This document shows, in pieces, positions 38 through 48,737 of a stretch of 51,382 bases of DNA. A model generated the notes under the pieces. It was given only the letters and a program-made list of their open reading frames with translations. It ran no database searches and was not told the origin of the DNA. The DNA is from a virus. Position 1 is the first letter of the stretch. Each line of letters starts with the position of its first letter. The position numbers were made by a program, and so were the translations under genes. The stretch spans positions 1 to 51,382 of IMG/VR virus record IMGVR_UViG_3300047481_002136. One strand, given 5' to 3'.

Positions 38-262
38 GTGACAGTTGGCTCAAAAAAAATATTACATCAAAACTTAGCAAAGTGGTGCTTAATGTTAGCA
101 CTTTTTTTCAACCCATTTGGTTTCGACATAGTACAGTATTGGTTGATACTATTGACTGGGAATCTTTGGTATGCCAACATCGTATTGTATTGCTTGGCGG
201 GTGTATTTTTTGGGCTATCCATCTACTATCACAATAAGCTAAGAAAAAATGATAAAGCTTAA
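38..262 (+). CDS. small two-helix membrane protein, possibly cut by the window edge
   Basis: This is a 74-residue reading frame from a GTG start with two hydrophobic stretches, roughly residues 15-35 and 40-62, and a basic tail ending KLRKNDKA. It looks like a small inner-membrane protein. The frame stays open to the left edge of the window with no stop, so the true start may lie upstream and the protein may be longer. A second frame starting with ATG at 31 covers the same DNA but has a poorer hydrophobic pattern, and it lacks the tight overlap with the next gene, whose ATG at 249 lies inside this frame. No function is recognised. Confidence 0.5.
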   Translation: MTVGSKKILHQNLAKWCLMLALFFNPFGFDIVQYWLILLTGNLWYANIVLYCLAGVFFGLSIYYHNKLRKNDKA

Positions 263-494
263 AGACATACTAAACGAAGACTTTGGAGGTCCTGGCAAAG
301 CAGAGTATCCATCAACACACAAAGCTGGAATGGAAGTGCCAAAAGGTGGTTCAATGTGTGCAAATTGTGGTTTGTGGGAAAAAAAAGGTAACATTTGTTT
401 ATCTAAGCATTGGATAAAGTGGCATGGTGGAGATGAAAAAATACCATACCCAGCTGATCAGTATTGTTGTAATTGGTGGGAATGGAATAAATAG
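249..494 (+). CDS. small Cys-cluster protein with a capsid-targeting-like N terminus
   Basis: The protein has 81 residues. Its first ten, MIKLKDILNE, form a short amphipathic helix ending in L-N-E, a fit to the (I/L)-x-E cleavage rule of T4-type prohead proteases. The rest is a Cys- and Trp-rich domain with C37-x2-C40, C50 and an adjacent pair C73-C74 followed by N-W-W. Five close cysteines in so small a domain suggest a metal or Fe-S centre. The spacing loosely recalls high-potential iron-sulfur proteins, but that is only a resemblance. It overlaps the preceding membrane-protein gene by 14 bases. If the N terminus is a targeting peptide, this would be a minor internal capsid protein. Confidence 0.6.
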   Translation: MIKLKDILNEDFGGPGKAEYPSTHKAGMEVPKGGSMCANCGLWEKKGNICLSKHWIKWHGGDEKIPYPADQYCCNWWEWNK

Positions 495-511
495 TATATA
501 TATATTAGTAT

Positions 512-955
512 ATGAACGAAGAATCAAAAGGACTTTGGCACAACATAAGAGCTAAACGAGCTCGAGGTGAAAAACCAGCTCGTAAAGGTTCAAAAGCCTA
601 CAATAAAGCAGTAGCAGCTGCTAAAAAAATAAATGCAAACGAAGAAGTCCATTTATGCAATGAATGTGCAATTGCACTACTTGAAGATATTAAAGCTGGC
701 AAGTTTTTAATGACAGAAGCTGAATATCAAGGACGTGATGTACCACTTGGTAAACCAATGGCAGGTGATGTAAAAAAATTCAAAGTATACGTGAAGAATC
801 CACAAGGCAACGTGGTAAAAGTAAACTTTGGACAAAAAGGAATGAAAATTAAAAAAAATAATCCCGAAAGACGCAAATCATTTAGAGCAAGACACAATTG
901 TGATAACCCAGGTCCAAGACACAAAGCAAGATATTGGAGCTGCAGGAAGTGGTAA
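512..955 (+). CDS. basic two-part phage protein with a conserved RKSFRARHNC...YWSC tail
   Basis: The protein has 147 residues and is strongly basic. The N-terminal part (residues 5-40) contains GLWHNIRAKRARGEKPARKG and an Ala/Lys helix. A short C49-x2-C52 segment follows. The C-terminal half (about 68-147) runs from an EYQGR motif through a beta-rich stretch to NPERRKSFRARHNC with a terminal YWSCRKW. From memory, both ends resemble segments common in uncultured marine T4-like phages, where they sit in small virion-associated or hypothetical proteins. No biochemical role is known to me. C49, C52, C130 and C144 could bind a metal. A TATATATA tract lies about 10 bases ahead of the ATG. Confidence 0.6.
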   Translation: MNEESKGLWHNIRAKRARGEKPARKGSKAYNKAVAAAKKINANEEVHLCNECAIALLEDIKAGKFLMTEAEYQGRDVPLGKPMAGDVKKFKVYVKNPQGNVVKVNFGQKGMKIKKNNPERRKSFRARHNCDNPGPRHKARYWSCRKW

Positions 956-961
956 TTAACT

Positions 962-1540
962 ATGATTAAATTACAAAAAATATTACAAGAGCTTTCAAAG
1001 ACTGGTGTAATGACCGGATCACAAGAAAAGATATTTAATACGGGTTTAAGAAAAATACACACATCACAAGCTGATATGTATAGGGATCAAATCACAAAAA
1101 AAACACCACATAGCGAAATTAATTATGGTGGATGTGGAATATTTGCAAAGTTGTTGTACTACAACATGAAAAAATATTTAAACATAACACCCGAAATAGT
1201 ATGTTTTGATTGGCCAGGTACCGAGTTACCCAAAGGTGGTATTAATAAGTATAAATCGCTAGTGGAATTTAATAATGCAGGCTATACTTGCATACACATA
1301 ACGTTAAAAATAAACGATTACTACATAGACTCATCAGGTGTACATAAATTAGAATGGTATAATAAAGTATATGGCTACGGACAAGGCTTTGATATACACG
1401 AAGGGATGACAATACAAACATTAACAAAATGGGTATCAAATAGTACTAGTTGGAATTCAACATTTAACCGCTACACAGCTGGTGACATAAATAAAGACAT
1501 GATAAAAGTTGTAAAAGAAGTAGCAAAACTTGAACCATAA
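962..1540 (+). CDS. putative papain/transglutaminase-fold cysteine hydrolase with a targeting-like N terminus
   Basis: The protein has 192 residues. It begins MIKLQKILQE, nearly the same as the start of the gene at 249, ending in L-Q-E. The body then shows NYGGCGIFAKLL around Cys58, with a Cys at the start of a helix as in papain-like and transglutaminase-like enzymes. A strand pair follows with His112 (CIHITLKIN) and Asp123 (YYIDSSG), spaced as in a Cys-His-Asp triad. This is a fold-level guess from motif order, not recognition of a known enzyme. The substrate could be a peptide, an amide or a peptidoglycan crosslink. A targeting sequence would place it inside the head for injection or early action. 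It starts seven bases after the preceding stop. Confidence 0.6.
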   Translation: MIKLQKILQELSKTGVMTGSQEKIFNTGLRKIHTSQADMYRDQITKKTPHSEINYGGCGIFAKLLYYNMKKYLNITPEIVCFDWPGTELPKGGINKYKSLVEFNNAGYTCIHITLKINDYYIDSSGVHKLEWYNKVYGYGQGFDIHEGMTIQTLTKWVSNSTSWNSTFNRYTAGDINKDMIKVVKEVAKLEP

Positions 1541-1553
1541 CAAAAAAACACAA

Positions 1554-1561
1554 TACTTATA
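1554..1561 (+). promoter_or_regulatory. variant late-promoter-like octamer TACTTATA
   Basis: A one-base variant of the recurrent TATTTATA element lies eight bases ahead of the ATG at 1570, in the only appreciable gap between these genes. The same variant precedes the gene at 18001. Confidence 0.3.
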
Positions 1562-1569
1562 TATAGCTT

Positions 1570-1929
1570 ATGCCATACGAATTAAGAAAACAAGATGGAG
1601 GATATAAAGTTGGTAAAAAAGGATCAAACAAAACCTTTTCCAAAAAACCTTTATCTAAAACAAAAGCAAAAGCACAATTAGCAGCACTACACATTAACGC
1701 ACCAAAAGAATCAATAAACATGAAAAGAAAAACAACAAAAGAACAGCTTTTAAGAGAGTATATTCGTAGAGCTGTTAAAAAAATCCTTCGTGAAGAAGAA
1801 GCTAAACCAGATTATCTAGATATGGATAAAGATGGCAACAAAAAAGAACCAATGAAAAAAGCAGTGAAAGATAAAGAAACCAAGACTGAAGAAAAAAGCA
1901 GAAGCACCAAGAGAATCACCAAAAGATAA
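1570..1929 (+). CDS. two-module basic protein with an internal targeting-like helix
   Basis: The protein has 119 residues in two modules. Residues 1-45 (MPYELRKQDGGYKVGKK, then FSKKPLSKTKAKAQLAAL) form a small module I associate with short proteins of marine viruses. From Met51 a second module begins, MKRKTTKEQLLREYIRRAV and KKILREEE, which closely resembles the (I/L)-R-E helices opening other genes here. It is followed by DMDKDGNKKEP, an Asp-rich loop resembling a Ca-binding DxDxDG turn, and then a Lys/Glu-rich tail. An ATG at 1720 could start the second module as a separate product. I call the longer frame because an octamer variant precedes it. Function is unknown. Confidence 0.6.
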   Translation: MPYELRKQDGGYKVGKKGSNKTFSKKPLSKTKAKAQLAALHINAPKESINMKRKTTKEQLLREYIRRAVKKILREEEAKPDYLDMDKDGNKKEPMKKAVKDKETKTEEKSRSTKRITKR

Positions 1930-1941
1930 ACAACATTAAGA

Positions 1942-2352: not shown

Positions 2353-2354
2353 TC

Positions 2355-3008: not shown

Positions 3009-3017
3009 AACCCAGAC

Positions 3018-3025: not shown

Positions 3026-3041
3026 ATTAAATAGCAATATC

Positions 3042-3344
3042 ATGAACCCATCAGAAAAAATATTACGGGAATACATTAGAGAGTATTTAAAACAACTTAA
3101 AGAAGCAGAGGAACAAGAAAAAGATGCAACAGTTGTAGATGAACCACAACAAGATCAATCTATACAAACCATTATTGAACCACTTGTTAACTCTTTTATT
3201 AGAAAAATAAAAAACAATATGGTAGAAGTAGATGGTGAAGTACTGCACGAAATAATAGTAGAGATGCTAAACGCACTAATACCTAGTAATGATGAAAAAT
3301 TATCAATATTAAAAAATGTAAAAAATACACTAATAGGTTATTAA
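3042..3344 (+). CDS. small acidic protein with a targeting-like N terminus
   Basis: The protein has 100 residues and starts MNPSEKILREYIREYLKQLKE, a charged amphipathic helix with three successive (I/L)-x-E sites: L-R-E, I-R-E and L-K-E. A Glu/Gln-rich linker follows to about residue 45, then a helical C-terminal domain (IIEPLVNSFIRKIKNN and LHEIIVEMLNALIPS). It has the size and layout of T4-type internal or core proteins but no identifiable function. It has its own octamer-like element upstream, and it ends one base before the start of the next gene. Confidence 0.6.
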   Translation: MNPSEKILREYIREYLKQLKEAEEQEKDATVVDEPQQDQSIQTIIEPLVNSFIRKIKNNMVEVDGEVLHEIIVEMLNALIPSNDEKLSILKNVKNTLIGY

Positions 3345-3345
3345 A

Positions 3346-4084: not shown

Positions 4085-5662
4085 ATGGGAGACTCAGCTA
4101 AGAGTTTAAAAGAAATTGTAAGAGAAGAATACATTAAATGTGTATCCTCTCCAGCCTACTTTATTAAAAAATACTGTATTATACAACATCCAACAAAAGG
4201 TAAAATGCCTTTTGAACTTTACAGATTTCAAGAACAAAGCATACAAGACTTTCAAGACAACGATCGTGTAATAATACTGAAGTCACGCCAGTTAGGTATA
4301 TCAACAACAGTAGCAGCTTATGCACTTTGGTTAATGTTGTTTCACAGTGATAAAAATTGTTTGGCAGTAGCGATTGATCAATTAACATCCAAAAACTTGA
4401 TTACAAAGTTGCATGTGATGTATGAGCATTTACCAAGTTGGTTAAAAATAAAAACAACAGAAAGTAATAAACTATCAATTAGATTAGCAAACGGATCACA
4501 AATTAAAGCAGTTGCATCAACAGGAACAACAGGACGTTCAGAAGCATTGTCTTTAGTGATTATGGACGAAGCTGCATTTATTGATGGTGCTGATGTGTTG
4601 TGGGCTTCTTTACAACAAACCCTTAGTACCGGTGGTAAAGCTATAATATTATCTACACCAAATGGTACCGAAAACTTTTTTCACAATACTTGGACAAAAG
4701 CAGAGGCAGGTGAAAATGGTTATAAAACAATAAGACTACCTTGGCAAGTACATCCAGATAGAGATCAAGCTTGGCGAGATAAACAAGACACAGAGTTGGG
4801 TGTAAGATTAGCAGGACAAGAGTGTGATTGTGACTTTTCAACATCAGGTAACACTGTTGTAGCCCCAGAAATCATTACATACTACCGAAATACTTATGCC
4901 CAAGACCCATCAGAAAAAAGAGGCTTTGATGGTAATTTATGGATTTGGGAAACACCCGACTACAGTAAAAATTACATAGTCGCAGCCGACGTAGCTAGAG
5001 GAGATGGCTCTGATTATTCTGCTTTTCATGTGTTAGACGTAGAAAGCTGTAGACAAGTAGCTGAATATAAAAGCCAAATAACAACAAAAGAGTTTGGAAA
5101 CCTACTAGTTGCTGTAGCAACGGATTACAATGATGCACTACTATCGATAGAAAATGCAAACGTAGGTTGGGCAACAATACAACAAGTAATAGAAAGAGGT
5201 TATAAAAATCTATACTATTCACACAAAAGCGACATATTGGACTCGGATAAATTTTTATTACGAGGCTATGACATAACAAGTAAAGGTGACATGATTGCTG
5301 GTTTTACAACTAGTCAAAAAACAAGACCTTTAATGATTAGTAAAATGGAATTATTGTTAAGAGAAAAGGAGATAGCAATACGTAGTAAGCGTATGTTAGA
5401 TGAATTAGCTGTATTCAGATGGAGAAGTGGAAAAGCAGAAGCAGCACCAGGCTACAATGATGATTTAGTGTTAGCTTATTGTCAAGGTTTGTGGGTAAGA
5501 GAAGTCGCAATAAGATTACGTCAAGCAGGAATTAACTTAAATAAACTTGCAATGACAAACACAAAATCTACATTATCAATGTATAAACCAACCAATGATA
5601 ACAATAGTTGGAAAATAAAAAATCAATTTGGTCAAGACGAAGATATAACTTGGCTATTATAG
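4085..5662 (+). CDS. gp17: terminase large subunit (gp17-like)
   Basis: The 525-residue DNA-packaging motor has ATPase and nuclease domains. The ATPase P-loop is KSRQLGIST at residues 66-74, Walker B is VIMDEAAF (Asp161, Glu162), and the coupling motif is LSTPNG around 190-194. The nuclease domain has RNase H-like acidic residues at Asp302 (VAADVARGDGSD), Glu356 (LLSIENAN) and Asp459/Asp460 (GYNDDLVLA). All catalytic elements are present. The length is a little short of T4 gp17 (610 residues). It begins 21 bases after the spanin-like gene and is followed by the portal. No small-terminase gene is recognisable in the window. Confidence 0.95.
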   Translation: MGDSAKSLKEIVREEYIKCVSSPAYFIKKYCIIQHPTKGKMPFELYRFQEQSIQDFQDNDRVIILKSRQLGISTTVAAYALWLMLFHSDKNCLAVAIDQLTSKNLITKLHVMYEHLPSWLKIKTTESNKLSIRLANGSQIKAVASTGTTGRSEALSLVIMDEAAFIDGADVLWASLQQTLSTGGKAIILSTPNGTENFFHNTWTKAEAGENGYKTIRLPWQVHPDRDQAWRDKQDTELGVRLAGQECDCDFSTSGNTVVAPEIITYYRNTYAQDPSEKRGFDGNLWIWETPDYSKNYIVAADVARGDGSDYSAFHVLDVESCRQVAEYKSQITTKEFGNLLVAVATDYNDALLSIENANVGWATIQQVIERGYKNLYYSHKSDILDSDKFLLRGYDITSKGDMIAGFTTSQKTRPLMISKMELLLREKEIAIRSKRMLDELAVFRWRSGKAEAAPGYNDDLVLAYCQGLWVREVAIRLRQAGINLNKLAMTNTKSTLSMYKPTNDNNSWKIKNQFGQDEDITWLL

Positions 5663-7565: not shown

Positions 7566-8420
7566 ATGAAAAACGTTAATCACTCGAAGTATAAAAATAC
7601 GGGAATATTGTTTGAACTGTTAACAAGGCAGATCACAGCAGACATAATGCAAGGAGTACAAAATTCACCTGCACTACAAATAATAAAAAAGCATTTTGAC
7701 AAAAATAAACACTTGGCAAAAGAGTTATTAATGTACCAAACATTAATTAATGAACGCTACGTTAATAAAGAAAAAGCTGAGTATTTGTTGGAAACCGTTT
7801 GTAAACTACACACTAAATTAAATGAAAAAAAGCTCAAACAAGAAAAGTATGAGCTTATAAAAGAGATCAAGAACAGTTATGATCTTAAAAAGTTTTTTTT
7901 AACAAACATAGACAAATATAAGCTTCACGCAGCAATATATTGTGTATTTGAAGAAGTACAACCAACAAACGTATCACAAACCGTAAAAAGCAAGTTTACA
8001 ATATTAGAGCATTTAGTTAGAAAAGCTAATCAACCTGACACAAAAAAAGATCAAGTAATACTAGAGTACACAAAGCAAGATAAAGAAATTAGATTATTAG
8101 CCTACAAAGCTTTGGTGGATAGGTTCAATGAAAAATATAGCTCTTTAAACATAAAGCAAAAAAGAATACTTAAAGAATATATAAATAGTGTTAGCAACTC
8201 AACAATATTAAAAGATTACGTAAAAGAAGAAGCAGCTAAATTAAAAGTTCTATTAGTAAACCAAACAAAACCTGTTAATGATCAAGTTGTAAAAATTAAA
8301 TTAAAAGAAGTTACCAACATGCTTGATCGATTTAACACTATAAAGAAAGTGAAAGATGATGACATACTATCTTTGCTACTATATCATAACTTACTTAAAG
8401 AGTTAAAAAATGCAAAATAG
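7566..8420 (+). CDS. head-module protein of unknown function
   Basis: The 284-residue protein is Lys-rich and almost entirely helical. It starts MKNVNHSKYKNTGILFELLT, a segment I believe recurs in T4-like environmental phages between portal and protease genes. There is no membrane segment, signal or nucleotide-binding motif. Position and helical character suggest a prohead core or assembly factor, roughly where T4 has genes 67 and 68, although no sequence likeness to those is evident. Its 3' end overlaps the next start by 11 bases. Confidence 0.65.
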   Translation: MKNVNHSKYKNTGILFELLTRQITADIMQGVQNSPALQIIKKHFDKNKHLAKELLMYQTLINERYVNKEKAEYLLETVCKLHTKLNEKKLKQEKYELIKEIKNSYDLKKFFLTNIDKYKLHAAIYCVFEEVQPTNVSQTVKSKFTILEHLVRKANQPDTKKDQVILEYTKQDKEIRLLAYKALVDRFNEKYSSLNIKQKRILKEYINSVSNSTILKDYVKEEAAKLKVLLVNQTKPVNDQVVKIKLKEVTNMLDRFNTIKKVKDDDILSLLLYHNLLKELKNAK

Positions 8421-9156
8421 ATTGTCTAAAGAAGAGTTGGAAGAAATTAAACGCTTTATTAAAAAAACAAAAAAAGCTAAAAACGAAGGATCAACAACAG
8501 CCGGAGTTCCAGGATTTGCAACACCAAAAGCATTTGTTGGTGATGAAACAGCTGATGGTACACAAGCTATTGATTTACAAGATGATCAATATAGCTATTC
8601 AAAGAAGCCTAGCAAAAAGAAAAAGCACTTTATTAAGCTACACGAAATATCGTATAAAACTTTTAAACAGGATGATACTTTAACTGAAGTGCAAAAAGTA
8701 AACAGAAGGATACTAGAAGTTAGTAAAAGACTTCGTGAGATTTCACAAGCATTAGATCACAGCATCAAACTAAAACAAGAGTCCTCACTAGACAATACAG
8801 CTTATTGGAAACGTACAAACGAAGCAATATTAAAAATACACAAACGAGTTTCGGAAGTAATGAAAAAAACAACAAAGCTTGCAAACTTAAAAGAATTGGC
8901 AGCAAATAGTCTCAAGGATCAAATTGTAAAATTACTTAGAAAGGCTGGAATACCAATACAAGCTAGCGATATATCACATAATCAAATTGGTTCGGATTCG
9001 TATGAATTAGATATATATATAGGAGGCGAACCTTATGGTATAGATTACGTTAATGGTGAATTAATATACCAAGACGTGGATAAAGAAGTACCTTTAGGTT
9101 TGCTAAAAGACCAAGAAGCCGTAATTAACAATATTAAAAAAACGTTTAACGTATGA
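8410..9156 (+). CDS. prohead-associated protein of unknown function
   Basis: The protein has 248 residues. It has a Lys/Glu-rich helical N terminus (LSKEELEEIKRFIKKTKKAK), then a flexible Gly/Ala/Asp segment and a KKPSKKKKH basic patch around 60-70. Helices follow to about 175, and then a compact C-terminal alpha/beta part (SYELDIYIGGEPYGIDYVNG). It overlaps both neighbours: 11 bases with the gene upstream and four (ATGA) with the protease gene, so it is probably translationally coupled. A role in head assembly is inferred from context only. Confidence 0.6.
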   Translation: MQNRLSKEELEEIKRFIKKTKKAKNEGSTTAGVPGFATPKAFVGDETADGTQAIDLQDDQYSYSKKPSKKKKHFIKLHEISYKTFKQDDTLTEVQKVNRRILEVSKRLREISQALDHSIKLKQESSLDNTAYWKRTNEAILKIHKRVSEVMKKTTKLANLKELAANSLKDQIVKLLRKAGIPIQASDISHNQIGSDSYELDIYIGGEPYGIDYVNGELIYQDVDKEVPLGLLKDQEAVINNIKKTFNV

Positions 9157-9761
9157 ACTTATTAGTTGACTTTATAGGATCGCTACAAGTAACACCTGAA
9201 TATGTTAATGAGTCAATTAACAAAAACAACGGTAAGTTAATTGTTAGTGGTGTAATGCAACGTGGTAGTACAAACGAAGATAAAAACTTTAATCAAAATG
9301 GTAGAAGCTACCCGTTACCAATACTAAAAAGAGAAGCAGAAAAATATAAACGAGGCTTTATTGCTGAAAATCGTGCGTTAGGTGAATTAGATCATCCTGA
9401 CTCATCCGTAGTAAACTTAGCTAATGTATCACACAATGTATTAGACCTTTGGTGGGATGGTAGTGATTTAATGGGTAAAATTGAAATACTACCAACACCA
9501 TCAGGAAACATAGCAAAAGAATTACTTAGATCAGGAATACGCTTGGGAATTAGTTCAAGAGGTATGGGAAGTGTAAAAAATTTAGGAGAGGGTAAAGTTG
9601 AAGTAGAAGATGATTTTGAAATTGTTTGTTGGGATTTGGTATCCAATCCATCAACACAAGGAGCTTTTATGGACAACTTACAAGAAGGAGTTAAAAAAAC
9701 AAAAAGTGATAAATACGCACAAGTACACACAATTATTAACGATATAATATCAATAGCATAA
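9153..9761 (+). CDS. gp21: prohead maturation protease (gp21-like)
   Basis: This is a 202-residue serine protease of the T4 gp21 (U9/S80-type) class. The herpesvirus-assemblin-like fold is indicated by His81 in GELDHPD and the nucleophile region GISSRGMGS (Ser134/Ser135), followed by DFEIVCWDLVSNPSTQGAF, a typical ending for this family. In T4 the enzyme cleaves scaffold, capsid and internal proteins after (I/L)-x-E. That rule matters here because many small proteins in this window carry such sites near their N termini. It starts by ATGA overlap and is followed by two small core-like genes and the scaffold. Confidence 0.92.
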   Translation: MNLLVDFIGSLQVTPEYVNESINKNNGKLIVSGVMQRGSTNEDKNFNQNGRSYPLPILKREAEKYKRGFIAENRALGELDHPDSSVVNLANVSHNVLDLWWDGSDLMGKIEILPTPSGNIAKELLRSGIRLGISSRGMGSVKNLGEGKVEVEDDFEIVCWDLVSNPSTQGAFMDNLQEGVKKTKSDKYAQVHTIINDIISIA

Positions 9762-9762
9762 C

Positions 9763-10122
9763 ATGAAACTCAAAAAACTAAAAGAAGAATTAGACCGTAA
9801 ATCTAACATAAACGAAAAAGCAGCATTTCTCGAAGAAATTGCAAAGTTTAATGAATATGGTGCTAGAATATATCGTACACAAGGTTTACGAGAAGCAGCT
9901 GCTGCTATCAATAAAATTATTGAAGGAGCAGAGCATCTAGTAATACAAGAAACGGAGGAGTGGTTTGATGAAGTAACAATTAAACGTAACATGAAAGAGC
10001 TTAAAAGAAAAAATGAAGACTTCATGAAAACAGTAAATGAAGTTACAAGATTACAACAAAGACTAGAGTCACTATACGAAGAAATGGGTCACACACTATC
10101 TAGGTACTATGAGATACGGTAA
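9763..10122 (+). CDS. small helical core-like protein
   Basis: The 119-residue protein is almost wholly predicted helix with heptad spacing in its second half (MKELKRKNEDFMKTVNEVTR and LQQRLESLYEEM). The start MKLKKLKEELDRKS contains an L-K-E site near the N terminus. It lies between protease and scaffold genes, where T4-like phages keep small prohead-core components, so a scaffold or core role is likely. No direct family recognition. It overlaps the next gene by 14 bases. Confidence 0.6.
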   Translation: MKLKKLKEELDRKSNINEKAAFLEEIAKFNEYGARIYRTQGLREAAAAINKIIEGAEHLVIQETEEWFDEVTIKRNMKELKRKNEDFMKTVNEVTRLQQRLESLYEEMGHTLSRYYEIR

Positions 10123-10546
10123 AAGTTTATTAGAACGACATATACGCAAAATTATAAAAGAGTATCTTCGCGAAGAAGAAGAAGGAGGAGGAAATCCCTT
10201 TGCAGCTGCAGCAGGTGAAGAAGGAGGTGGAGAAGAAGGTGGAGAAGATTCAGGTGGTGGAGAAGCAGCTGCCGATACTGGTGGAGATGAAGGTGGTGAA
10301 GAAGGTGGAGAAGAAGAAAAAACTGATACCAAAAAAGGTGAAGCACCACAAGGAGTACCAGTTAAATTTAACATAAGCCGAGTTAAAAAATATAACAATG
10401 CTAAGTTTTTAGGTGATGAAGGGATCTTAAAAAGCATAAGTAAAAAAGGATTAGTTGTTACTGTACAGCCTGATAATGTCGATATACTTGTTAATTTTGA
10501 CGATATTACAGAAAGTGTAAAAAAATTTTTCAAAAAAAGACGCTAA
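10109..10546 (+). CDS. Gly/Glu-rich core-like protein with a targeting-like N terminus
   Basis: The protein has 145 residues in three parts. Residues 1-27 form the basic helix MRYGKSLLERHIRKIIKEYL plus REEEE, with I-K-E and L-R-E sites matching those of other small genes here. Residues 28-75 are a low-complexity Gly/Glu/Ala/Asp linker encoded by GGA/GAA repeats. Residues 85-145 form a basic, beta-rich domain (VKFNISRVKKYNNAKFLG, then VVTVQPDNVDILVNFDDITE) ending KKFFKKRR. Location just ahead of gp22 and the cleavage-like sites suggest a prohead core protein trimmed during maturation. Confidence 0.6.
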   Translation: MRYGKSLLERHIRKIIKEYLREEEEGGGNPFAAAAGEEGGGEEGGEDSGGGEAAADTGGDEGGEEGGEEEKTDTKKGEAPQGVPVKFNISRVKKYNNAKFLGDEGILKSISKKGLVVTVQPDNVDILVNFDDITESVKKFFKKRR

Positions 10547-10679: not shown

Positions 10680-11738
10680 ATGAACAAATTATTAAAAGAT
10701 GCTATTGCTGATGCAAAAGCTGTGCGTGAAACAGCGCTAGCAAATGCTAAAGCAGCTCTCGAAGAAGCATTTGCACCTAAATTACAATCCATGCTTTCTC
10801 ATAAAATTAAAGAGGAAATGGAATCTAGTGAAGAAGGTGAAGAAATGCCAGAAGACGAGATGCAAAAAATGAAAGAGTTAGCAGGTATTGTTTCTGAGGA
10901 AGGAGACGAATCAGAAGAAGAAATGCCAGCTGATGATGACATGGGTTCTGAAGAAGAGGACATGGACATGGATTCCGGTGAGGAAGATATGGATATGGGT
11001 TCTGAAGAAGAGGACATGGACATGGGCTCTGATGACGAAGAAATGCCATCCGATGATGAAGAAGTGCCATCTGATGACGAAGAAATCTCAGACGAAGATC
11101 TTGATGAAATTTTATTCGAACTAGAAGCAGACGCCGAAGAAGGCGAAGAAAAAGACATGATGGAAGCCGAAGATCCAGAAGCTAAAGATGAAGACATGAT
11201 GGAAGCTGAGGAAGAAGAAGACACAATGGACGAAGAAATTGACTTAAATGAGTTAATTAATGCTTTACGTGAAGGTGACGATGAAGATAAAGAACTTACT
11301 CCTGAAGAAGAGGATGCTCTTGAATCCGACAGAAAAGCTCAAATGGAAGCAAAAAAATACAAAATGAAGTCAAGAAAAATGGAAGCACAGCTTAATGAAG
11401 CTTATTCAGCAGTTAAGTACTTACGTACAAAACTAAACGAAGTGAATCTACTTAACGCTAAATTACTTTTTGTAAACAAGCTTTTCCGTAATCAAACTTT
11501 ATCCGAAAGTCAAAAGGTAAAAATCATTGAAACTTTTGATCGTGCAAAAAGTGTACGTGAAGCTAAATTGATTTACTCAACTTTACTAGAATCTGCAACA
11601 GCTCCAAAAACAAAAAAATCTTTCAAACTTAACGAAGGTTTTGCTTCTAAAGCTCAAAAAGGAACAAATGTTATACCTCAAACAAACGAGTTGTACAAGC
11701 GTTTCAACGATTTAGTTAACTATAACTCAAACAAATAA
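10680..11738 (+). CDS. gp22: prohead core scaffold protein (gp22-like)
   Basis: The 352-residue protein is the internal scaffold around which the capsid would assemble, degraded by the gp21-like protease on maturation. An N-terminal helix (MNKLLKDAIADAKAVRETAL) is followed by an extremely acidic, Met-rich low-complexity region, about residues 45-190, with repeated SEEEDMDM and PSDDEE units. A 28-base direct repeat (10943-10970 and 10997-11024) underlies part of it. The C-terminal 130 residues are a conserved-looking helical domain (MEAQLNEAYSAVKYLRTKL; FDRAKSVREAKLIYSTLLES) and contain FKLNEG, an L-N-E cleavage-type site. T4 gp22 is 269 residues. The position directly before the capsid gene is diagnostic. 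Confidence 0.88.
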   Translation: MNKLLKDAIADAKAVRETALANAKAALEEAFAPKLQSMLSHKIKEEMESSEEGEEMPEDEMQKMKELAGIVSEEGDESEEEMPADDDMGSEEEDMDMDSGEEDMDMGSEEEDMDMGSDDEEMPSDDEEVPSDDEEISDEDLDEILFELEADAEEGEEKDMMEAEDPEAKDEDMMEAEEEEDTMDEEIDLNELINALREGDDEDKELTPEEEDALESDRKAQMEAKKYKMKSRKMEAQLNEAYSAVKYLRTKLNEVNLLNAKLLFVNKLFRNQTLSESQKVKIIETFDRAKSVREAKLIYSTLLESATAPKTKKSFKLNEGFASKAQKGTNVIPQTNELYKRFNDLVNYNSNK

Positions 11739-11772: not shown

Positions 11773-13410
11773 ATGATGAATGATTTATTCAAAAATCTTG
11801 GAAATACAAACCGCGCAGAGGAAGTAAAACCTTTGATTTCCAAGTGGGCCAAAACTGGTCTTTTAGAAGGTTTAAGAAACAGCAACGAAAAAACAACAGT
11901 AGCTGTACTCTTAGAAAACCAAGCAAAGCAGCTTATTAAAGAAGGATCTGTATCCATGGCTTCAACAGCTGGTGGTGCAGGTTTTGAGCAATACCATGGT
12001 GTAGCTTTACCGCTTGTACGCCGTGTGTTTGCAGAAATCGCTGCTAAAGAATTTGTATCTGTACAACCAATGAATTTACCTTCTGGTCTTGTGTTCTACC
12101 TTGACTTTAAGTATGGTAATGACAAAAAGCCATTTGGATTTGCTCCAACTGACAGAAACCAAACTGGTACTTTACAAGGTATCACATCAGCTTCTGGAGA
12201 CCCTTCAGATGGTCTTTATGGTGCTGGTCGTTTTGGATATTCAACAAATGCCAACATTATTACGGGAGTTAACGTAACAACTGGATCTGTATCACAGACG
12301 GATGTTTATTTTGATGGATTCTACACAGCTTCAATAGGTACATACAAAAAGCTTACCTATAATGGGTTCTTCTCAGCAGCTTCTGCATCAACAGCCGATC
12401 CACTTGCAGTACGTGCATTTGTTCCAGTATCAGGATCAACTACATTTGCAGCAGGAACACAATATTACCCAGCATTCACAACTCGTCCTGCAGGAACAAA
12501 CGATCTTGTGTTTATCGTAACTGGTAGTGCAATTGGAGCAGCTGCAACCTTTACTTCAGCAGTATCTTACTCAATTCAACCAACTAACGATGCTCGTCAA
12601 GACTTTGAAAGTACTGGTGTAACTTCAACTGCACGCTCACTCGACACAGATCTTAAAATACCTGAAATTGAATTGCAAATGCGCTCAATTCCGGTAACTG
12701 CTAAGACTCGTAAGTTAAAAGCAAGCTGGACACCTGAATTTGCTCAAGACCTTAACGCTTACCACTCAGTAAATGCTGAAGGTGAATTAACAGCTATGTT
12801 GTCTGAATATGTTTCCATGGAAATAGATTTAGAAATCTTAGACATGTTGATATCATCCGCTGCTACAACTGAATATTGGTCAGCTAAGATTGGTCGTGAG
12901 TATAACTCAGCTGGTGCAACATTACAAACCCAGGAATACACAGGTACTGCGTACATTCAAGGTACTTGGTATCAGACATTAGGAACTAAATTGCAAAAAG
13001 TTTCTAACAAAATACATGCTAAAACCCTTCGTGGTGGTGCTAACTTCTTAGTTTGTTCTCCTGACGTATCAACTATTTTGGAATCAATTCCAGGATATGC
13101 TGCAGATGGTGATGGTGAAAAAATGAAGTATGCAATGGGTGTACAAAAAGTAGGTGCTTTAACTAGCCGCTACCAAGTGTATAAAAACCCTTACATGCAA
13201 GAAAACACCGTATTGATGGGCTTCCGTGGTTCTCAGTTCTTAGAGACAGGTGCTGTTTATGCTCCTTACATTCCATTGATGTTAACACCTCTTGTGTACG
13301 ATCCATTGAACTTCATTCCACGTCGTGGAGTGATGACTCGCTACGCAAAAGTTGTTACGAGACCCGAGTTTTATGGAAAAGTATACGTAGCAGATTTGAA
13401 CACTCTGTAA
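11773..13410 (+). CDS. gp23: major capsid protein (gp23-like)
   Basis: The protein has 545 residues; T4 gp23 has 521. The N-terminal 57 residues are a removable propeptide ending NQAKQLIKE before GSVSMAS, so maturation cleavage is predicted after Glu57 by the gp21-like enzyme. T4 gp23 is cut after Glu65 at a comparable place. Conserved gp23-type blocks follow: GGAGFEQYHGVALPLVRRVF, FVSVQPMNLPSGLVFYLDF, a region near EIELQMRSIPVTAKTRKLKA, WTPEFAQDLNAYH, and a C-terminal DPLNFIPRRGVMTRYAK. The leader is A-rich without a Shine-Dalgarno. An intrinsic terminator follows. No gp24-like vertex paralogue is seen. Confidence 0.95.
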   Translation: MMNDLFKNLGNTNRAEEVKPLISKWAKTGLLEGLRNSNEKTTVAVLLENQAKQLIKEGSVSMASTAGGAGFEQYHGVALPLVRRVFAEIAAKEFVSVQPMNLPSGLVFYLDFKYGNDKKPFGFAPTDRNQTGTLQGITSASGDPSDGLYGAGRFGYSTNANIITGVNVTTGSVSQTDVYFDGFYTASIGTYKKLTYNGFFSAASASTADPLAVRAFVPVSGSTTFAAGTQYYPAFTTRPAGTNDLVFIVTGSAIGAAATFTSAVSYSIQPTNDARQDFESTGVTSTARSLDTDLKIPEIELQMRSIPVTAKTRKLKASWTPEFAQDLNAYHSVNAEGELTAMLSEYVSMEIDLEILDMLISSAATTEYWSAKIGREYNSAGATLQTQEYTGTAYIQGTWYQTLGTKLQKVSNKIHAKTLRGGANFLVCSPDVSTILESIPGYAADGDGEKMKYAMGVQKVGALTSRYQVYKNPYMQENTVLMGFRGSQFLETGAVYAPYIPLMLTPLVYDPLNFIPRRGVMTRYAKVVTRPEFYGKVYVADLNTL

Positions 13411-31561: not shown

Positions 31562-31600
31562 AGAAAGCCAATCCTAAAAAGTTGGCTTTTTTATTTTATA
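31562..31600 (+). terminator. intrinsic terminator after the chaperone genes
   Basis: The eight-base stem AAAGCCAA / TTGGCTTT (31564-31571 with 31582-31589) has a ten-base loop and is followed by a T-rich tract. It lies 30 bases after the frameshift-extension stop, which supports that stop as the true end of the gene. Confidence 0.88.
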
Positions 31601-39425: not shown

Positions 39426-40748
39426 GTGTATATAGATAATGTCTTAAAGTTACAAGATATACAAGATCACAATCTATTTGTATATCCAGTCACTAATGAT
39501 AGCAGACTGCACAACTCACAAAACAATATTATTGGATTAATTATTATTGAGTGTGGTTCACAAAAAGTACACATAGTTGGCACAACACATCCTGAGACTC
39601 ACAAACAAGTTTTTGACTATAGTATATTTAAAGACAAAACAATCTATTGTTACAATAAAAACTTATTAAGATACAAACAAATAAAAGAAGCACAAGATTT
39701 TATTGATGTAGAATTACAATATTATCTTTACACAAATCAATCTTTAGATACCGTTGAGCTTCCAATCATTAAACATTACACACACAAGTATCCAAGTTGT
39801 CACCAAGTAAACAAATTAGTTAGTTTATCAAAGCATGCTGAGATAGCTAAAAGCATATTTGAAAATGGTTGGGTAAAACAAAAACAAGCAGGATTAGAAT
39901 TCTACGACAAAGAATTAATACCGGCACTATATAATATAGAAAAAGAAGGATTGCACGTAGATAGTTTACTATATAAACAATGCTTTGGTAATAGTATGGG
40001 TTTGGTAAAAGATAAGTGCTACACACAATACAATTACTATACAGCAACAGGAAGACCTAGCAATAGATTTGGAGGTATAAATTACGCAGCACTAAACAAA
40101 GAAGATGCTTCACGAGAAGTATTCACATCACGATTTGCAAATGGTACTTTAGTTGAAATTGATTTTAACTCCTATCATCCAAGATTAATAGCACAACTTA
40201 TAGACTATGACTTTGGTGATAATAATGTGTATGAGTACTTAGCAAGATATTACTATAACACAAGTAATCCAACCCAAGACGAAATTGAAAAAGCAAAAGA
40301 AGAAACCTTCAAACAAATTTATGGTGGTGTAAGACAACAATACACACACATACCCTTTTTTAATAAAGCAAATACTTTAGTAACTTATTTATGGAATCAA
40401 ATGGAAGAACAAGGTTATGTAGAAAGCCCAATATCAGGTAGAAGATTACACCAAAGTAACTACGCAGATATTGACAAGCATGTGTTATTTAATTATTTTA
40501 TACAAATGTTTGAAACTGAAATGAATACACTAACATTAAATAAAATACACACACAATTGCTTACAATGGAGTCAAAGGCAGTATTATACACATATGATAG
40601 TATCCTATTCGATGTACCACAAAACGAATTAGAGGATCTTATCCACAACATAATACCAAAGTGTGTAGATTTAAAAAAATATCCAATTAAAGTAAAAACC
40701 GGTAAATGTTACAAAAACATGACTACTTATATAAAAGAGCTAGTATGA
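39426..40748 (+). CDS. short, divergent family A DNA polymerase
   Basis: The 440-residue protein starts at GTG (nearby ATGs are out of frame). The polymerase core is present: the TATGRPS turn (206-212), motif A LVEIDFNSYHPRLIA with Asp246, motif B K291-x3-F295-x3-Y299-G300 (KEETFKQIYGG), and motif C LYTYDSILF with Asp391. Motif C lacks the usual H-D-E: the Glu is Ser392. Residues 1-170 resemble a shrunken 3'-5' exonuclease region without obvious D-x-E metal sites. It is half the length of bacterial Pol I. Both palm aspartates remain, so catalysis is possible, but proofreading is doubtful. No family B (gp43) polymerase is in the window. Confidence 0.75.
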   Translation: MYIDNVLKLQDIQDHNLFVYPVTNDSRLHNSQNNIIGLIIIECGSQKVHIVGTTHPETHKQVFDYSIFKDKTIYCYNKNLLRYKQIKEAQDFIDVELQYYLYTNQSLDTVELPIIKHYTHKYPSCHQVNKLVSLSKHAEIAKSIFENGWVKQKQAGLEFYDKELIPALYNIEKEGLHVDSLLYKQCFGNSMGLVKDKCYTQYNYYTATGRPSNRFGGINYAALNKEDASREVFTSRFANGTLVEIDFNSYHPRLIAQLIDYDFGDNNVYEYLARYYYNTSNPTQDEIEKAKEETFKQIYGGVRQQYTHIPFFNKANTLVTYLWNQMEEQGYVESPISGRRLHQSNYADIDKHVLFNYFIQMFETEMNTLTLNKIHTQLLTMESKAVLYTYDSILFDVPQNELEDLIHNIIPKCVDLKKYPIKVKTGKCYKNMTTYIKELV

Positions 40749-40930
40749 AGAGATCAGACCTTGTGAGAATTATACGCGAAGAAATAAAAGCTGTGTTAGA
40801 ATTAACACAAGCTGAAAAAGTAGCTAATGTAAAAGCAGCAACTGCGGACATTGAAGCAAAGAAAATTGCACTCAAAGGAGCTCAGGAAAAACTCAAAAGA
40901 GCAAATACAACACCGGTAGATCAGAAATAA
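40745..40930 (+). CDS. small protein with a targeting-like N terminus
   Basis: The protein has 61 residues from an ATG that overlaps the polymerase stop (ATGA). An in-frame upstream start at 40706 lies deep inside the polymerase and is less likely. It opens MKRSDLVRIIREEIKAVLEL, with I-R-E, and the remainder is an Ala/Lys/Glu helix (AEKVANVKAATADIEAKKIA). The opening is nearly the same as at 48501 and 31629. Unlike those, no octamer precedes it, so it may be expressed with the replication genes. Function is unknown. Confidence 0.6.
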   Translation: MKRSDLVRIIREEIKAVLELTQAEKVANVKAATADIEAKKIALKGAQEKLKRANTTPVDQK

Positions 40931-42192: not shown

Positions 42193-43347
42193 ATGAAAAA
42201 GCAATCAAAACCAACCCAAGAAATTTTGGGTAGAGATGAACTAGCTGTACAACTAGCTGACAACTTAAATAAAAAGTTTAAAGATTTTAAAGCTGTTCAC
42301 TTTCTTGATGGCGAAGAATCAACACCGGTAGATTTAACAGAGTGGGTCTCAACAGGATCCACTCTTTTAGATTTAGCTATTTCAAATAGACCTAACGGTG
42401 GTTTACCGGTAGGAAGAATAGTTGAGTTTACTGGATTGGAGGCATCAGGTAAAAGTTTAATTATGGCACACTTGTTAGCAAACACTCAAAAGAAAGGTGG
42501 ATTGGCAGTTTACATAGATACTGAAAATGCACTTAGTGAAGAGTTTTTACGAGCTATTGGTGTTGATGTAACAAACATGCTTTACATACCTTTAGAAACT
42601 GTGGAAGATATATTTGAAGCAATTGAAAGTATTATTGAATCCATTCGCAAATCATCAAAGGATCGGTTAGTAACAATTGTTGTTGATTCAGTTGCTGGTG
42701 CAACTACTAAAATAGAACAAGATGCAGACTATGAAAAAGATGGTTGGGCAACTTCAAAAGCTATTGTAATGTCTAAAGCAATGCGTAAAGTAACTGGTAT
42801 GATTGGTAAGCAACGTATATTGTTAGCTTTCACAAATCAGCTTAGAGAAAAACTTGGTGTAATGTTTGGAGACAAATACACAACATCAGGTGGTAAGGCA
42901 TTAGGATTTCACTCAACTGTACGTGTACGACTAAGTTCAGTTGGTAAAATTAAAGTTAAACAAGCAAACGGTAAAGAAGAAATTGTTGGTGTACAAACAG
43001 AGGCAACAATTATTAAGAATCGTGTTGGACCACCATTTAAAAAAGCACAATTTGAAATTTACTTTAACTCTGGTATAGATGATGTTAATAGCTGGTTATC
43101 AGTATTAAAAGAATATGAGCTACTAAAACAATCAGGTGCTTGGTATGAAATAGTATATGAAGATACAGGTGAAGTGTTTAAGTTTCAATCTAAAGATTGG
43201 AAAGATATTCTACAAAAGAATGACGGACTAAAAACATATTGTTATAACAAAATCTGTGAAGCAATTATATCAAAGTATAAGTCTGAAGGAATAGATCCCG
43301 ACAATTTAAAATTAGATGACACAGACTTAGCCGGACTAGATGAATAA
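42193..43347 (+). CDS. uvsX: RecA/UvsX-like recombinase
   Basis: The 384-residue strand-exchange ATPase has Walker A GLEASGKS at residues 81-88, a following AVYIDTENAL block, Walker B TIVVDSVAG and a loop region with TNQLREKLGVMFGDKYTTSG. I take the ATG at 42193 as the start. A TTG six bases earlier is in frame but weaker. It overlaps the nuclease gene by eight bases. It would pair with gp32 in recombination-dependent replication, as in T4. Confidence 0.93.
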   Translation: MKKQSKPTQEILGRDELAVQLADNLNKKFKDFKAVHFLDGEESTPVDLTEWVSTGSTLLDLAISNRPNGGLPVGRIVEFTGLEASGKSLIMAHLLANTQKKGGLAVYIDTENALSEEFLRAIGVDVTNMLYIPLETVEDIFEAIESIIESIRKSSKDRLVTIVVDSVAGATTKIEQDADYEKDGWATSKAIVMSKAMRKVTGMIGKQRILLAFTNQLREKLGVMFGDKYTTSGGKALGFHSTVRVRLSSVGKIKVKQANGKEEIVGVQTEATIIKNRVGPPFKKAQFEIYFNSGIDDVNSWLSVLKEYELLKQSGAWYEIVYEDTGEVFKFQSKDWKDILQKNDGLKTYCYNKICEAIISKYKSEGIDPDNLKLDDTDLAGLDE

Positions 43348-44371
43348 GCGTTACTTAAAACTATTAGAAGAAGTTATGGAGTCAAAATCAGAACCCTTGC
43401 ACAAACACTCAAGGGTTTTGATTATTGACGGTTTAAATACATTTATACGTAGTTACGCTGCAAGTCCCGTAACAAACAATGATGGGGTACATGTAGGTGG
43501 TATTACAGGGTTTTTAATGAGTGTTGGATCAGCAATCAAAACAATTAACCCAACACAAGTTATAGTCGTGTTTGATGGAAAGAATGGTAGTAGTAGACGT
43601 AGACAAGTGTATCCAGATTACAAAGCAAAAAGAAAAGTAAAAATAAGATTAAACAGAGGTGATGGATCAGTTGATCAAGACAATCAACTACAACAACTAG
43701 TACGTTTAATTACTTATTTAGAAACTTTACCATTCAAGGTAATCACAATTGAAAACACTGAGGCAGATGATGTAATAGCTTACCTAGCTAGTGACTACTT
43801 TAAGGATAAAGGAACTCAAGCATACATCATGTCCTCCGATAAGGATTTTTTTCAACTTGTTAATGACGATATCCACATTTGGAGTCCAACAAAAAAGAAA
43901 CTTTACTTCACACAAGACGTACAAGAAGAATTAGGATTACCACCACAAAATGTAGCTATTTACAAAGCTCTCGTTGGAGATTCAAGTGACAACATACCAG
44001 GAGTACAAGGAGTAGGACTAAAAAGTTTATTAAAGTGTTTACCCGATATTGGTACAACACCAATGACAGTAGATCAGTTTTTAGACTACACAAAACAAAA
44101 AAGTGAAGAAAGCAAAGGAGCAATCTACAAAAAAATATTACAGTCAGAGGGTGACTTTAGATTATATTATAGTATAGTTCAATTAGCAACAAGTAATATC
44201 AACACAGCTAGTAAACTTAGAATAATAGATTTAGTGCAAAACGAAATTAACAAAACACAAAAAGCTACCTTCTATAAACTATTGACTGAGGATAGAATGC
44301 TTGGTGCTATCAAAAATCCGGACATGTGGTTACGAGAAATAACACAAAAGCTGGATATGTTTACAACTTAA
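43340..44371 (+). CDS. 5'-3' exonuclease / FEN-type RNase H
   Basis: The 343-residue metal-dependent nuclease of the T4 RNase H / FEN family removes RNA primers from lagging-strand fragments. Acidic ligands are Asp30 (LIIDGLN), Asp79 (VVFDGKNG), Glu141, Asp143 and Asp144 (NTEADDV), Asp167 and Asp169 (SSDKDF), and Asp214 and Asp217 (VGDSSDN), followed by the helix-hairpin-helix IPGVQGVGLKS. All are intact. RRRQVYPDYKAKR is the basic helical arch. It overlaps the recombinase gene and is closely followed by the helicase. Confidence 0.9.
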   Translation: MNKRYLKLLEEVMESKSEPLHKHSRVLIIDGLNTFIRSYAASPVTNNDGVHVGGITGFLMSVGSAIKTINPTQVIVVFDGKNGSSRRRQVYPDYKAKRKVKIRLNRGDGSVDQDNQLQQLVRLITYLETLPFKVITIENTEADDVIAYLASDYFKDKGTQAYIMSSDKDFFQLVNDDIHIWSPTKKKLYFTQDVQEELGLPPQNVAIYKALVGDSSDNIPGVQGVGLKSLLKCLPDIGTTPMTVDQFLDYTKQKSEESKGAIYKKILQSEGDFRLYYSIVQLATSNINTASKLRIIDLVQNEINKTQKATFYKLLTEDRMLGAIKNPDMWLREITQKLDMFTT

Positions 44372-45747: not shown

Positions 45748-45753
45748 GCTAAC

Positions 45754-45761: not shown

Positions 45762-45797
45762 CAAACATATTCACAACCTAAACAAAACATATACAAA

Positions 45798-47830: not shown

Positions 47831-48242
47831 AAAATTAGACCCAAACGCAGTTATACCAAACTACGCTAAACCAGGAGATGCAGGATTAGATTTAACTGCA
47901 ACATCAATGCAAATAATAGATAATCCACAATATGGTTACATAGAGTATGGTACAGGATTAGCTTTTGAAATACCACAAGGATATGTTGGATTAATTTATC
48001 CAAGAAGCTCGATATCAAACACAGGATTACTATTAAGTAATAGTGTTGGAGTAGTTGATAGTGGATACAGAGGTGAAGTAAAATTTAGATTCAAGTATGT
48101 TAAAAACACTGCACACTATGGAGTAGGAGATCGTGTTGGACAATTAATAATAGTACCTTATCCACAGATACAGCTAATAGAATCACAAGAGCTTTCAGAC
48201 ACACAAAGAGGCGAAGGTGGTTTTGGGAGTAGTGGAAAGTAA
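47811..48242 (+). CDS. dut: dUTPase
   Basis: The 143-residue trimeric dUTP pyrophosphatase shows all five family motifs in order: GDAGLDLTA, YPRSSISN, VGVVDSGYRGEV, VGDRVGQLIIVP and RGEGGFGSSGK. The length is normal for the family. It would remove dUTP and supply dUMP for dTMP synthesis. It starts inside the small Cys-rich gene. Confidence 0.95.
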   Translation: MLPIKVKKLDPNAVIPNYAKPGDAGLDLTATSMQIIDNPQYGYIEYGTGLAFEIPQGYVGLIYPRSSISNTGLLLSNSVGVVDSGYRGEVKFRFKYVKNTAHYGVGDRVGQLIIVPYPQIQLIESQELSDTQRGEGGFGSSGK

Positions 48243-48252
48243 AAAAATAGAC

Positions 48253-48260
48253 TATTTATA
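48253..48260 (+). promoter_or_regulatory. late-promoter-like octamer TATTTATA
   Basis: GACTATTTATA lies 12 bases before the ATG at 48273. Confidence 0.55.
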
Positions 48261-48272
48261 TCAAATTAAGCT

Positions 48273-48476
48273 ATGGCAACCCTCGAAACCCAATACCAAA
48301 ACTACCTAAAGGCAAACCCAACATCCATCTTAACTTATGATGAATGGATGGACCAAGTTTGGGAACCTAAAATATCTGATGATTTCCAAATTGGACCTGA
48401 TGGTGCATTTGAATATACTGATGAAGATTTATCTGATTGGGATGCTACTTTGATGGATGGATTAGAAGACGAGTAA
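48273..48476 (+). CDS. small acidic protein
   Basis: The 67-residue protein begins with a helix (ATLETQYQNYLKANPTSILT, then YDEWMDQVW), followed by an Asp/Glu-rich tail ending DWDATLMDGLEDE. The 'YLK-x-N-P-x-S-x-x-T-Y-D/E-E-W' opening resembles small proteins found in many phages of Bacteroidota and marine bacteria, of unknown role. The net charge is strongly negative. It has its own octamer element and is likely expressed late. Confidence 0.55.
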   Translation: MATLETQYQNYLKANPTSILTYDEWMDQVWEPKISDDFQIGPDGAFEYTDEDLSDWDATLMDGLEDE

Positions 48477-48477
48477 A

Positions 48478-48485
48478 TATTTATA
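48478..48485 (+). promoter_or_regulatory. late-promoter-like octamer TATTTATA
   Basis: A perfect copy starts just after the previous stop and lies 15 bases before the ATG at 48501. Confidence 0.55.
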
Positions 48486-48500
48486 ATAAAATCAGAAACC

Positions 48501-48737
48501 ATGAAAAAATCAGAATTACAACAAGTTATTAGAGAAGAAGTTAAAAACTCACTAACTGAAATCGGTAATACTAGTAATGCTCACCCGTGGGTATTAAGAG
48601 CCATGGAGGAATTAAAAGACTCGTTAGAGTACTATCTAGGCCCAAAAAATCAATATGCCGGTTCTGCCATTGATTTTGATCTTCTAAAAAAGCAGATGGT
48701 TGAATTGACAAAACTGATTAAAAAATATCATCCTTAA
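48501..48737 (+). CDS. small protein with a targeting-like N terminus
   Basis: The 78-residue protein opens MKKSELQQVIREEVKNSLTE, with I-R-E and L-T-E sites, closely like the openings at 40745 and 31629. The remaining 55 residues are a helical, weakly acidic domain (HPWVLRAMEELKDSLEYYL; FDLLKKQMVELTKLIKKY). It has a perfect octamer element. The combination fits a late-made protein delivered into the prohead. No function is known. Confidence 0.65.
   Translation: MKKSELQQVIREEVKNSLTEIGNTSNAHPWVLRAMEELKDSLEYYLGPKNQYAGSAIDFDLLKKQMVELTKLIKKYHP

Follow-up and report, generated by a model that had tools for sequence, protein, structure and literature searches.

The 51,382-base virus record IMGVR_UViG_3300047481_002136 (hereafter the window, meaning this whole stretch of DNA) is T4-like, and scattered genes in it open with a short charged helix carrying (I/L)xE. 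An initial annotation had read these starts as one capsid-targeting helix, shared by at least eight genes with unrelated bodies and ending in cleavage sites of the type cut by the T4 prohead protease gp21. All eight gene starts are present with the motifs described, as is a ninth, internal copy at 1720 within the open reading frame (ORF) 1570-1929. The idea of a shared tag stands, that of a single common helix does not, as the copies belong to at least two tag families, which we term class A and class C. In the window, class A comprises 31629, 40745 and 48501 and, loosely, 3042, 10109 and 1720, and class C comprises 249, 962 and 1942. The scores given below come from a tag profile that was trained on the scanned tags of other uncultured phages and run on gene starts; its null is 4947 internal-methionine sets, and the 99% level is that passed by 1% of the null.

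249-278, + strand: class C tag MIKLKDILNE, gene 249-494 (81 amino acids, CxxC-containing body), above all 4947 nulls
962-991, + strand: class C tag MIKLQKILQE, gene 962-1540 (192 amino acids), above all 4947 nulls
1720-1794, + strand: tag-like helix within ORF 1570-1929 (fusion or internal start)
1942-1974, + strand: class C variant MKLINLIPLKE, gene 1942-2352, p = 0.032 alone
3042-3104, + strand: class A-like tag with ILRE, YIRE and QLKE, gene 3042-3344, p = 0.003
10109-10174, + strand: class A-like tag with IIKE and YLRE, head-core gene 10109-10546 between the protease and the scaffold-like gene, p = 0.0065
31629-31691, + strand: class A tag with IIQE and a GTG start, gene 31629-31943, p = 0.0002
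40745-40801, + strand: class A tag MKRSDLVRIIREEIKAVLE with IIRE, gene 40745-40930, above all 4947 nulls
48501-48560, + strand: class A tag MKKSELQQVIREEVKNSLTE with VIRE, gene 48501-48737, the top score in the window and above all 4947 nulls

Seven of the eight listed starts pass the 99% level, 3042 and 10109 only weakly, and 1942 fails when taken alone. As judged by sequence comparison, orthologues rescue the weak copies. The 1942 gene has orthologues with canonical class C starts (MIKLKSILKE at L105:14934 and MIKLKSILFE at L322:2762; L and G numbers are our handles for loci, contigs and genomes), and the orthologues of 3042 (L029, L291, L002) retain a charged N-terminal helix followed by Glu-rich sequence. 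The orthologue of 31629 (L148:2387-2692) has the canonical class A start MKKSELHKIIREEIQNHMIEE followed by G, and that of 48501 is found at L203:11797-12030. For the 249 body, the homologue L125:6502-6732 has another N-terminus, reading KLQE, and the profile match begins at position 13, behind the tag. The start at 40745 is an internal ATG lying 13 codons into ORF 40706-40930, and the 1720 copy, which lies too deep in its ORF for profile scoring, is followed by a stretch (KPDYLDMDKDGN) with similar ones in L024, L025 and L036. Just upstream of 31629, at about 31562-31598, a hairpin with a T run looks by eye like an intrinsic terminator.

The tagged gene at 10109 is part of a head-gene block with the order portal, 7566, 8410, protease, 9763, 10109, scaffold-like gene and capsid, to be compared with the T4 order 20-67-68-21-22-23.

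In the window: T4-type portal (PF07230, E 5.5e-67)
8410-9156, + strand: gene before the protease, with 46 matches; varied charged helices open its homologues, and its tag-profile p is 0.02
9153-9761, + strand: prohead protease of the gp21 type, Peptidase_S77 (PF03420, E 2.4e-25; phrog_207, E 6.7e-52)
9763-10122, + strand: head-core gene adjoining the protease, tag-profile p = 0.0014, 52 matches including itself
10680-11738, + strand: scaffold-like protein in the gp22 position, so named from its position alone; 79 matches including itself
11773-13410, + strand: major capsid protein, gp23 type (PF07068, E 8.6e-75)
11773-11943, + strand: presumed capsid-protein propeptide, residues 1-57, ending in QLIKE before G58

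The two further sites of the same kind that had been described in this block, QLIKE before G58 in the capsid protein and KLNEG at residue 316 in the scaffold-like protein, are both present. Family searches with the scaffold-like product gave nothing better than E 0.03. The S77 protease was found in 20/20 selected relatives, and a whole-record search found it in the cultured relatives immuto and Mel-JY01 and in 0/4 Bacteroidota control phages. By eye, the product of immuto gp072 (MKKSQIVKAVQEVLEE followed by MSTTG) is similar to that of 8410-9156. In G009 (the L056 record, a 368-kb phage) the S77 match at about 71514-72392 is in two pieces within one 367-residue open frame, which may reflect an insertion inside the protease frame. 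In the control contig G050 the S77 match (G050:C1:34576-35064) crosses one in-frame TGA, possibly a recoded stop, and a second capsid-like match there likewise contains a TGA.

The two classes were defined across uncultured phages by scanning IMG/VR with the patterns MKKSELxx[IL]IREE for class A and MIKLKx[IL]LxE for class C, each of which gave at least 120 stretches; a scrambled control pattern, slightly shorter than that of class C, gave 68 stretches in the whole collection with one match each. The consensus is MKKSELRQIIREEIxKxLxE for class A and MIKLKDILNE for class C, so that the tags are about 20 and 10 residues long, respectively. Among the 164 class A matches listed, the upstream frame is readable for 163; it contains no ATG ahead of the match in 147 and reaches an in-frame stop within 30 codons in 152. 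Because an upstream ATG is rare and a stop is near, the class A tag is N-terminal. Likewise, 126 of 134 listed class C matches, duplicates removed, have no upstream ATG. Two or more tagged genes occur in 26/120 class A and 18/119 class C loci listed, with a maximum of eight. L200 carries seven class A tags in 13.9 kb, with further arrays in L321, L311, L315 and L316, and tag codons vary among them.

The bodies behind the tags are unrelated, as had been claimed. Among the matches listed, 124 distinct class A proteins, selected on residues 1-13 alone, form 109 body clusters (101 singletons), and 133 class C proteins form 83. Conservation extends to the (I/L)xE and ends there. With one class A protein per cluster, residues 15-20 have an information content of 0.5-0.9 bits, which drops to about zero at residue 21 and beyond. 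An [ILVM]xE ends at residues 16-22 in 89/109 clusters, and the three 7-residue bins that follow have 12, 11 and 11 of 109 (Fisher 2e-27 for the comparison with the first of them). For the narrower range 18-21 the count is 72/109 (65/109 with I or L only), against 8, 4 and 6 of 109 in the next three 4-residue bins. The residue after the class A Glu is most commonly A, G or S. As Glu10 is part of the class C scan pattern, we used for this class an independent set of N-terminal MIKL proteins, taken from loci outside those retrieved by the class C scan (n = 42, some mutually related, with position 4 fixed by selection). In this set, [ILVM]xE ends at residue 10 in 29/42 and at any other position from 6 to 20 in at most 7; a hydrophobic residue stands at position 7 in 39/42, at position 8 in 39/42 and at position 9 in 9/42. 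Synonymous codon use within tags is like that of the bodies, with codon choice varying in the tag, and the constraint on the tag therefore acts on the protein.

The bare motif carries little of this signal. Counted over the window and seven relatives, [IL]xE occurs in 313/1105 N-terminal stretches (28%) and in 2290/11577 internal 23-mers (20%), so that (I/L)xE by itself does not serve as evidence, which corrects the initial annotation. The complete tag does better. At the 99% level 11/57 window genes pass the profile where 0.6 are expected (binomial 1e-11), with no training protein present in the window, the seven relatives, immuto or the Mel-JY01 stretch. Seven of the eleven are starts listed above; the other four are 9763, 4085 (terminase), 30265 and 31946, of which the last three are probably false positives. 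Bacteroidota control phages of 0.29-0.38 G+C without S77 (first 50 kb each) give 5/327 in total (phi14:2 1/70, phi38:1 0/94, crAss001 1/65, phi10:1 3/98). At the 99.5% level the window has 10/57 and the four controls together 1/327. Complete tags are thus present beyond chance, as the profile flags 11/57 window genes against 5/327 in controls without S77. Run across related genomes, as had been proposed, the profile finds passing starts in every one at the 99% level (G001 4/50, G005 6/171, G002 14/148, G007 19/205, G011 17/250, G012 18/242, G010 7/113), and in the cultured relatives immuto (18/240) and Mel-JY01 (4/44 in the first 50 kb), both of which lie above background; the parts of the T4 genome that were scored give 7/246. 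Early regular expressions had also shown enrichment (class A in 30/1236 starts and 14/4147 internal methionines, class C in 53/1236 and 78/4147) and were set aside for the profile test, as they caught terminase and scaffold starts too. An unsupervised N-terminal motif search, which found a fuzzy charged helix and hit its upper bound on the share of sites, served as a hint only.

The capsid protein bears a site of the same kind. The [ILV]xE site is present in 83/83 aligned capsid sequences, window included. Its P3 is mostly V or I and its P2 is free; the Glu is followed by A in 47 sequences, by S in 21, by G in 11 and by some other residue in 4. Among tagged contigs of at least 60 kb with S77, 14/15 have a capsid protein 45-61% identical to that of the window, and the fifteenth stops 264 bases past its protease match. 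Among control contigs with S77, which number 6/15 of those of at least 40 kb, 1/6 has this capsid clade (53%) and five have capsid proteins at 31-38%. Because 14/14 tagged and 1/6 control contigs carry the clade (p = 0.0004), the tag dialect, as far as these sequences go, tracks this capsid clade rather than S77 in general. Eight tagged contigs lack S77; Gp23 matches are found in 0/8 of them (the control genomes gave none in that search either), and the sheath and the terminase match are each absent in 7/8. With these matches mostly missing, the eight look like fragments that lack the virion block.

The head-core genes carry the tags too, and here the two classes exchange. At least 16 of 40 listed homologues of 9763, some of them near-identical, open with a class C-like tag. 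Gene X, the core gene at the 10109 position in other relatives (13 matches including the query and one fragment), has class C tags in L035, L037, L038, L081 and L054 and class A tags in L015, L016, L020, L026, L028 and L044, with 29-34% identity across the swap; the Mel-JY01 copy has another start. The window gene 10109 itself has 8 matches, including itself and one fragment, with a class A tag in L011, class C-like tags in L008, L029 and L010, and other starts in L002 and L003. Outside the core, class A body A35 (L164:1590-2090 by list order) is 32% identical, over a 145-residue match, to class C body C57 (L316:2599-3060). When tags of two kinds can stand in for one another in this way, the simplest reading is that they share one job; the exchange also gives indirect support to the idea that a tag may suffice to bring a foreign protein into the head. 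The model of one tagged core-gene product gives residues 1-26 a predicted local distance difference test (pLDDT) score below 50, and confident helices follow, as expected of a detachable tag. Capsid proteins can also have tag-like starts (MNIKSILNES in G010, MDIKNILTS in Mel-JY01).

A Pfam search with 86 tagged class C proteins matched 24 families, mostly once each, including RimK ATP-grasp, NUDIX, RNase_T, HD, AAA_33/Zeta toxin, ADPrib_exo_Tox and metallopeptidase families, and 105 class A proteins matched four families, three of them of unknown function. The ADPrib_exo_Tox match (PF03496, E 2.8e-6) belongs to one member of the class C set, and none of ten proteins scanned singly gave it. A class C family with an invariant HFT (L094:5249, L304:3039, L303:5016, L164:884) has an AlphaFold2 model of pLDDT 64 whose best match is the tRNA 2'-phosphotransferase KptA/Tpt1 (Z 10.7, 114 residues, root-mean-square deviation 3.5), with DarT at Z 8.0 (136 residues, 4.0). 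Foldseek gave a best E of 7e-3 and none below 0.001, and the family members scanned matched no Pfam family at E 0.01. The model tentatively suggests an ADP-ribosyltransferase (ART) fold behind the tag, as in T4 Alt; no gene of this type was found in the window. For the 962 body, searches gave no relative among viral contigs, no Pfam match at E 1 or better and no solved structure better than E 0.25. That it might be a papain-like cysteine enzyme (GGCG, HITLKINDYYIDSSG) was an impression that nothing confirmed.

Of the 14 best-scoring genes listed for Flavobacterium phage immuto (isolation host Flavobacterium sp. LMO8), 10 are annotated as hypothetical and one is a 5'-3' deoxyribonucleotidase, in which the tag begins four codons into the annotated gene. 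The tagged genes of immuto include KNV73_gp231 (MIKLIDLLTE followed by S), gp095, gp094, gp093, gp087 and gp082. This phage (L082, L133-L135) is also annotated with a 7-deazaguanine DNA-modification set (QueC, QueD, QueE, FolE and DpdA), and the set together with the tagged genes is a possible parallel to the modified DNA and IPI of T4. Nucleotidyltransferase-like proteins with tag-like helix starts occur at G010:34008-35582, G002:77631-78374 and L083:11243-13162; two of these are in one cluster, the protein of Mel-JY01 is annotated as cytidylyltransferase-like, and an NMNAT-like motif is visible by eye only. At 512-955 the window has a module (KGLWHNIRAKRARGEKPARKGS), untagged here, whose matches in other phage families lie at their start, in their middle or at their end, and L373:9140-9757 has a version of it immediately behind a class C tag. 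The gene at 43340-44371, probably a 5'-3' exonuclease judging by neighbour order in immuto, carries the N-terminal extension MNKRYLKLLEEV, and genes in G002 and G011 start similarly.

Taken together, these results favour the sorting-tag interpretation of the initial annotation, and we consider it very probable that the tags at the N-termini serve as propeptides for capsid targeting and are cut off by the S77 protease. Constant tags on unrelated bodies, with conservation that ends at (I/L)xE, point to it, and so do the capsid site in 83/83 sequences, the tagged head-core genes, the exchange of tags and the T4 gp24 match described below. During assembly of the prohead core the tag would bind scaffold or core and carry its protein inside, and after closure of the shell the S77 protease would cut behind the (I/L)xE at the tag end, predicted to lie after residue 10 or 11 in class C and about 19-21 in class A. 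The freed body would stay in the head with the DNA and, by analogy with the T4 internal proteins (IPs) and Alt, would enter the host. This suggests that many proteins with nothing else in common are loaded into the phage capsid, from which they may be delivered into the host cell.

Several observations weigh against this interpretation. The terminase (4085-5662), which is not known to be packaged in T4, has a class A-like N-terminal helix (KSLKEIVREEY, p = 0.003), so that tag-like helices are imperfectly specific. Relatives retain this helix along with the sequence that follows it, and its resemblance to the tags may be due to chance or to shared portal or core binding. Among the controls, phi10:1 reaches its 3/98 at the 1% level, with none at 0.5%, and the unsupervised search reached a log-likelihood of 480 for 647 N-termini against 282 for 400 internal segments, a barely higher value per sequence. 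The window copies 1942, 10109 and 3042 are weak alone, as given above. S77 occurs in 15/23 tagged and 5/7 control contigs of at least 60 kb (the 23 drawn from the 80 loci listed per scan rather than all 120), which gives no separation, and its co-occurrence among large contigs was dropped as proof. The T4 genes ipI, ipII, ipIII and alt lie outside the top 12 of the profile, class A is not alignable to the capsid-targeting sequences (CTS) of T4, and in the open-access literature we found no virion study of immuto or Mel-JY01.

The tags might instead be assembly handles only, on core and scaffold parts that are later chopped up, with no cargo going to the host. T4 gp67, gp68 and gp22 are degraded and lost in this way, some of the tagged genes are head-core genes beside the protease and the scaffold-like gene, and several tags contain two or three (I/L)xE sites. 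Most tagged bodies are mutually unrelated (109 + 83 clusters), however, and enzymes such as NUDIX, RNase_T, HD, RimK, the ADP-ribosyltransferase-family match and the ART-like model would be odd in a throw-away scaffold, which makes this explanation improbable in our estimate. A helix serving membrane binding, oligomerisation or adaptation to a host protease, with (I/L)xE incidental to it, is a further alternative; the terminase helix resembles class A, so that tag-like helices are not unique to presumed cargo. We regard it as very unlikely, since conservation stops at (I/L)xE in both classes, the tags also sit on head-core genes, a site of this kind is kept in the capsid protein and the scores of the control phages, which have no S77, stay close to background. 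That the tags are an artefact of lysine- and AT-rich gene starts, as the window G+C of 0.345 and the somewhat general N-terminal enrichment of bare [IL]xE might suggest, we hold to be next to negligible in probability, given that the profile null and the controls contradict it (5/327 at a comparably low G+C content), that the scrambled pattern gave single matches whereas each class pattern gave at least 120 stretches, many with multiple ones, and that codon choice varies within the tag.

If the tags are capsid-targeting propeptides, a wider hypothesis can be put forward. We give slightly better than even chances to the view that this whole T4-like clade, which has relatives in culture on Flavobacterium and Microcystis, possesses a general system of capsid loading with two interchangeable tags. 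Through it each phage would bring into the host, at infection, anything from several to a dozen or more proteins, which would be largely strain-specific and include enzymes. Injected phage proteins can act before phage gene expression, as in the counter-defence by T4 IPI and the modification of the host by T4 Alt, and they are normally identified by virion proteomics of cultured phages. Under this hypothesis, the injected repertoire of uncultured phages could be listed from sequence alone, and many unannotated small genes in a large, mostly uncultured clade would become candidate injected effectors. It would also show how freely cargo is exchanged, as orthologues swap tags and most sampled bodies occur once. 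The T4 CTS and internal proteins have long been known; for the tag pair, its spread over about 190 body clusters and its exchange between orthologues we found no report in the open-access literature, where six tag strings gave no match either.

Among known systems, the closest are the CTS of T4 IPI, IPII, IPIII and Alt (Mullaney and Black, reviewed in PMC9026906), which share with the tags a short N-terminal position, an (I/L)xE end, diverse bodies and a protease of the gp21 (S77) type. IPII and IPIII begin with MKTYQEFIAEA and Alt with MELITELFDED; in IPIII, Asp at position 10 inhibits processing. As stated in PMC9026906, the first ten residues of IPIII suffice for its incorporation, residues 4 and 7 act in targeting and 8 and 10 in processing, and IP propeptides are 10-19 residues long. 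Class C fits the key positions 7, 8 and 10 of IPIII, in that positions 4, 7 and 8 are hydrophobic and position 10 is Glu, as in IPII and IPIII (position 4 being preset by selection), and class A is close to the T4 IP propeptides in length. T4 gp24, a shell protein and not cargo, has a propeptide that is nearly class C (MAKINELLRE followed by S) and ranks 1 of 246 T4 genes in the tag profile; according to PMC9958956, it loses its first 10 residues to the prohead protease. Ejection proteins of the SPN3US and phiKZ type are likewise large sets of head proteins, some of them protease-cut, with propeptides that are thought to act in targeting. In the portions of PMC5694885 and PMC10052503 drawn on here, however, the N-terminal propeptides of SPN3US are mostly 111-254 residues long, with two of 20 and 24, and no shared short tag is described. 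T4 Alt is itself a packaged ADP-ribosyltransferase, and in the relatives a class C tag precedes the family with the ART-like model, whose nearest folds, unlike Alt, are KptA and DarT. Finally, the system outlined here would depart from the T4 CTS in the tag itself (MIKLKDILNE in class C, compared with MKTYQEFIAE), in having the second and longer class A, and in the apparently greater number of tagged genes per genome.

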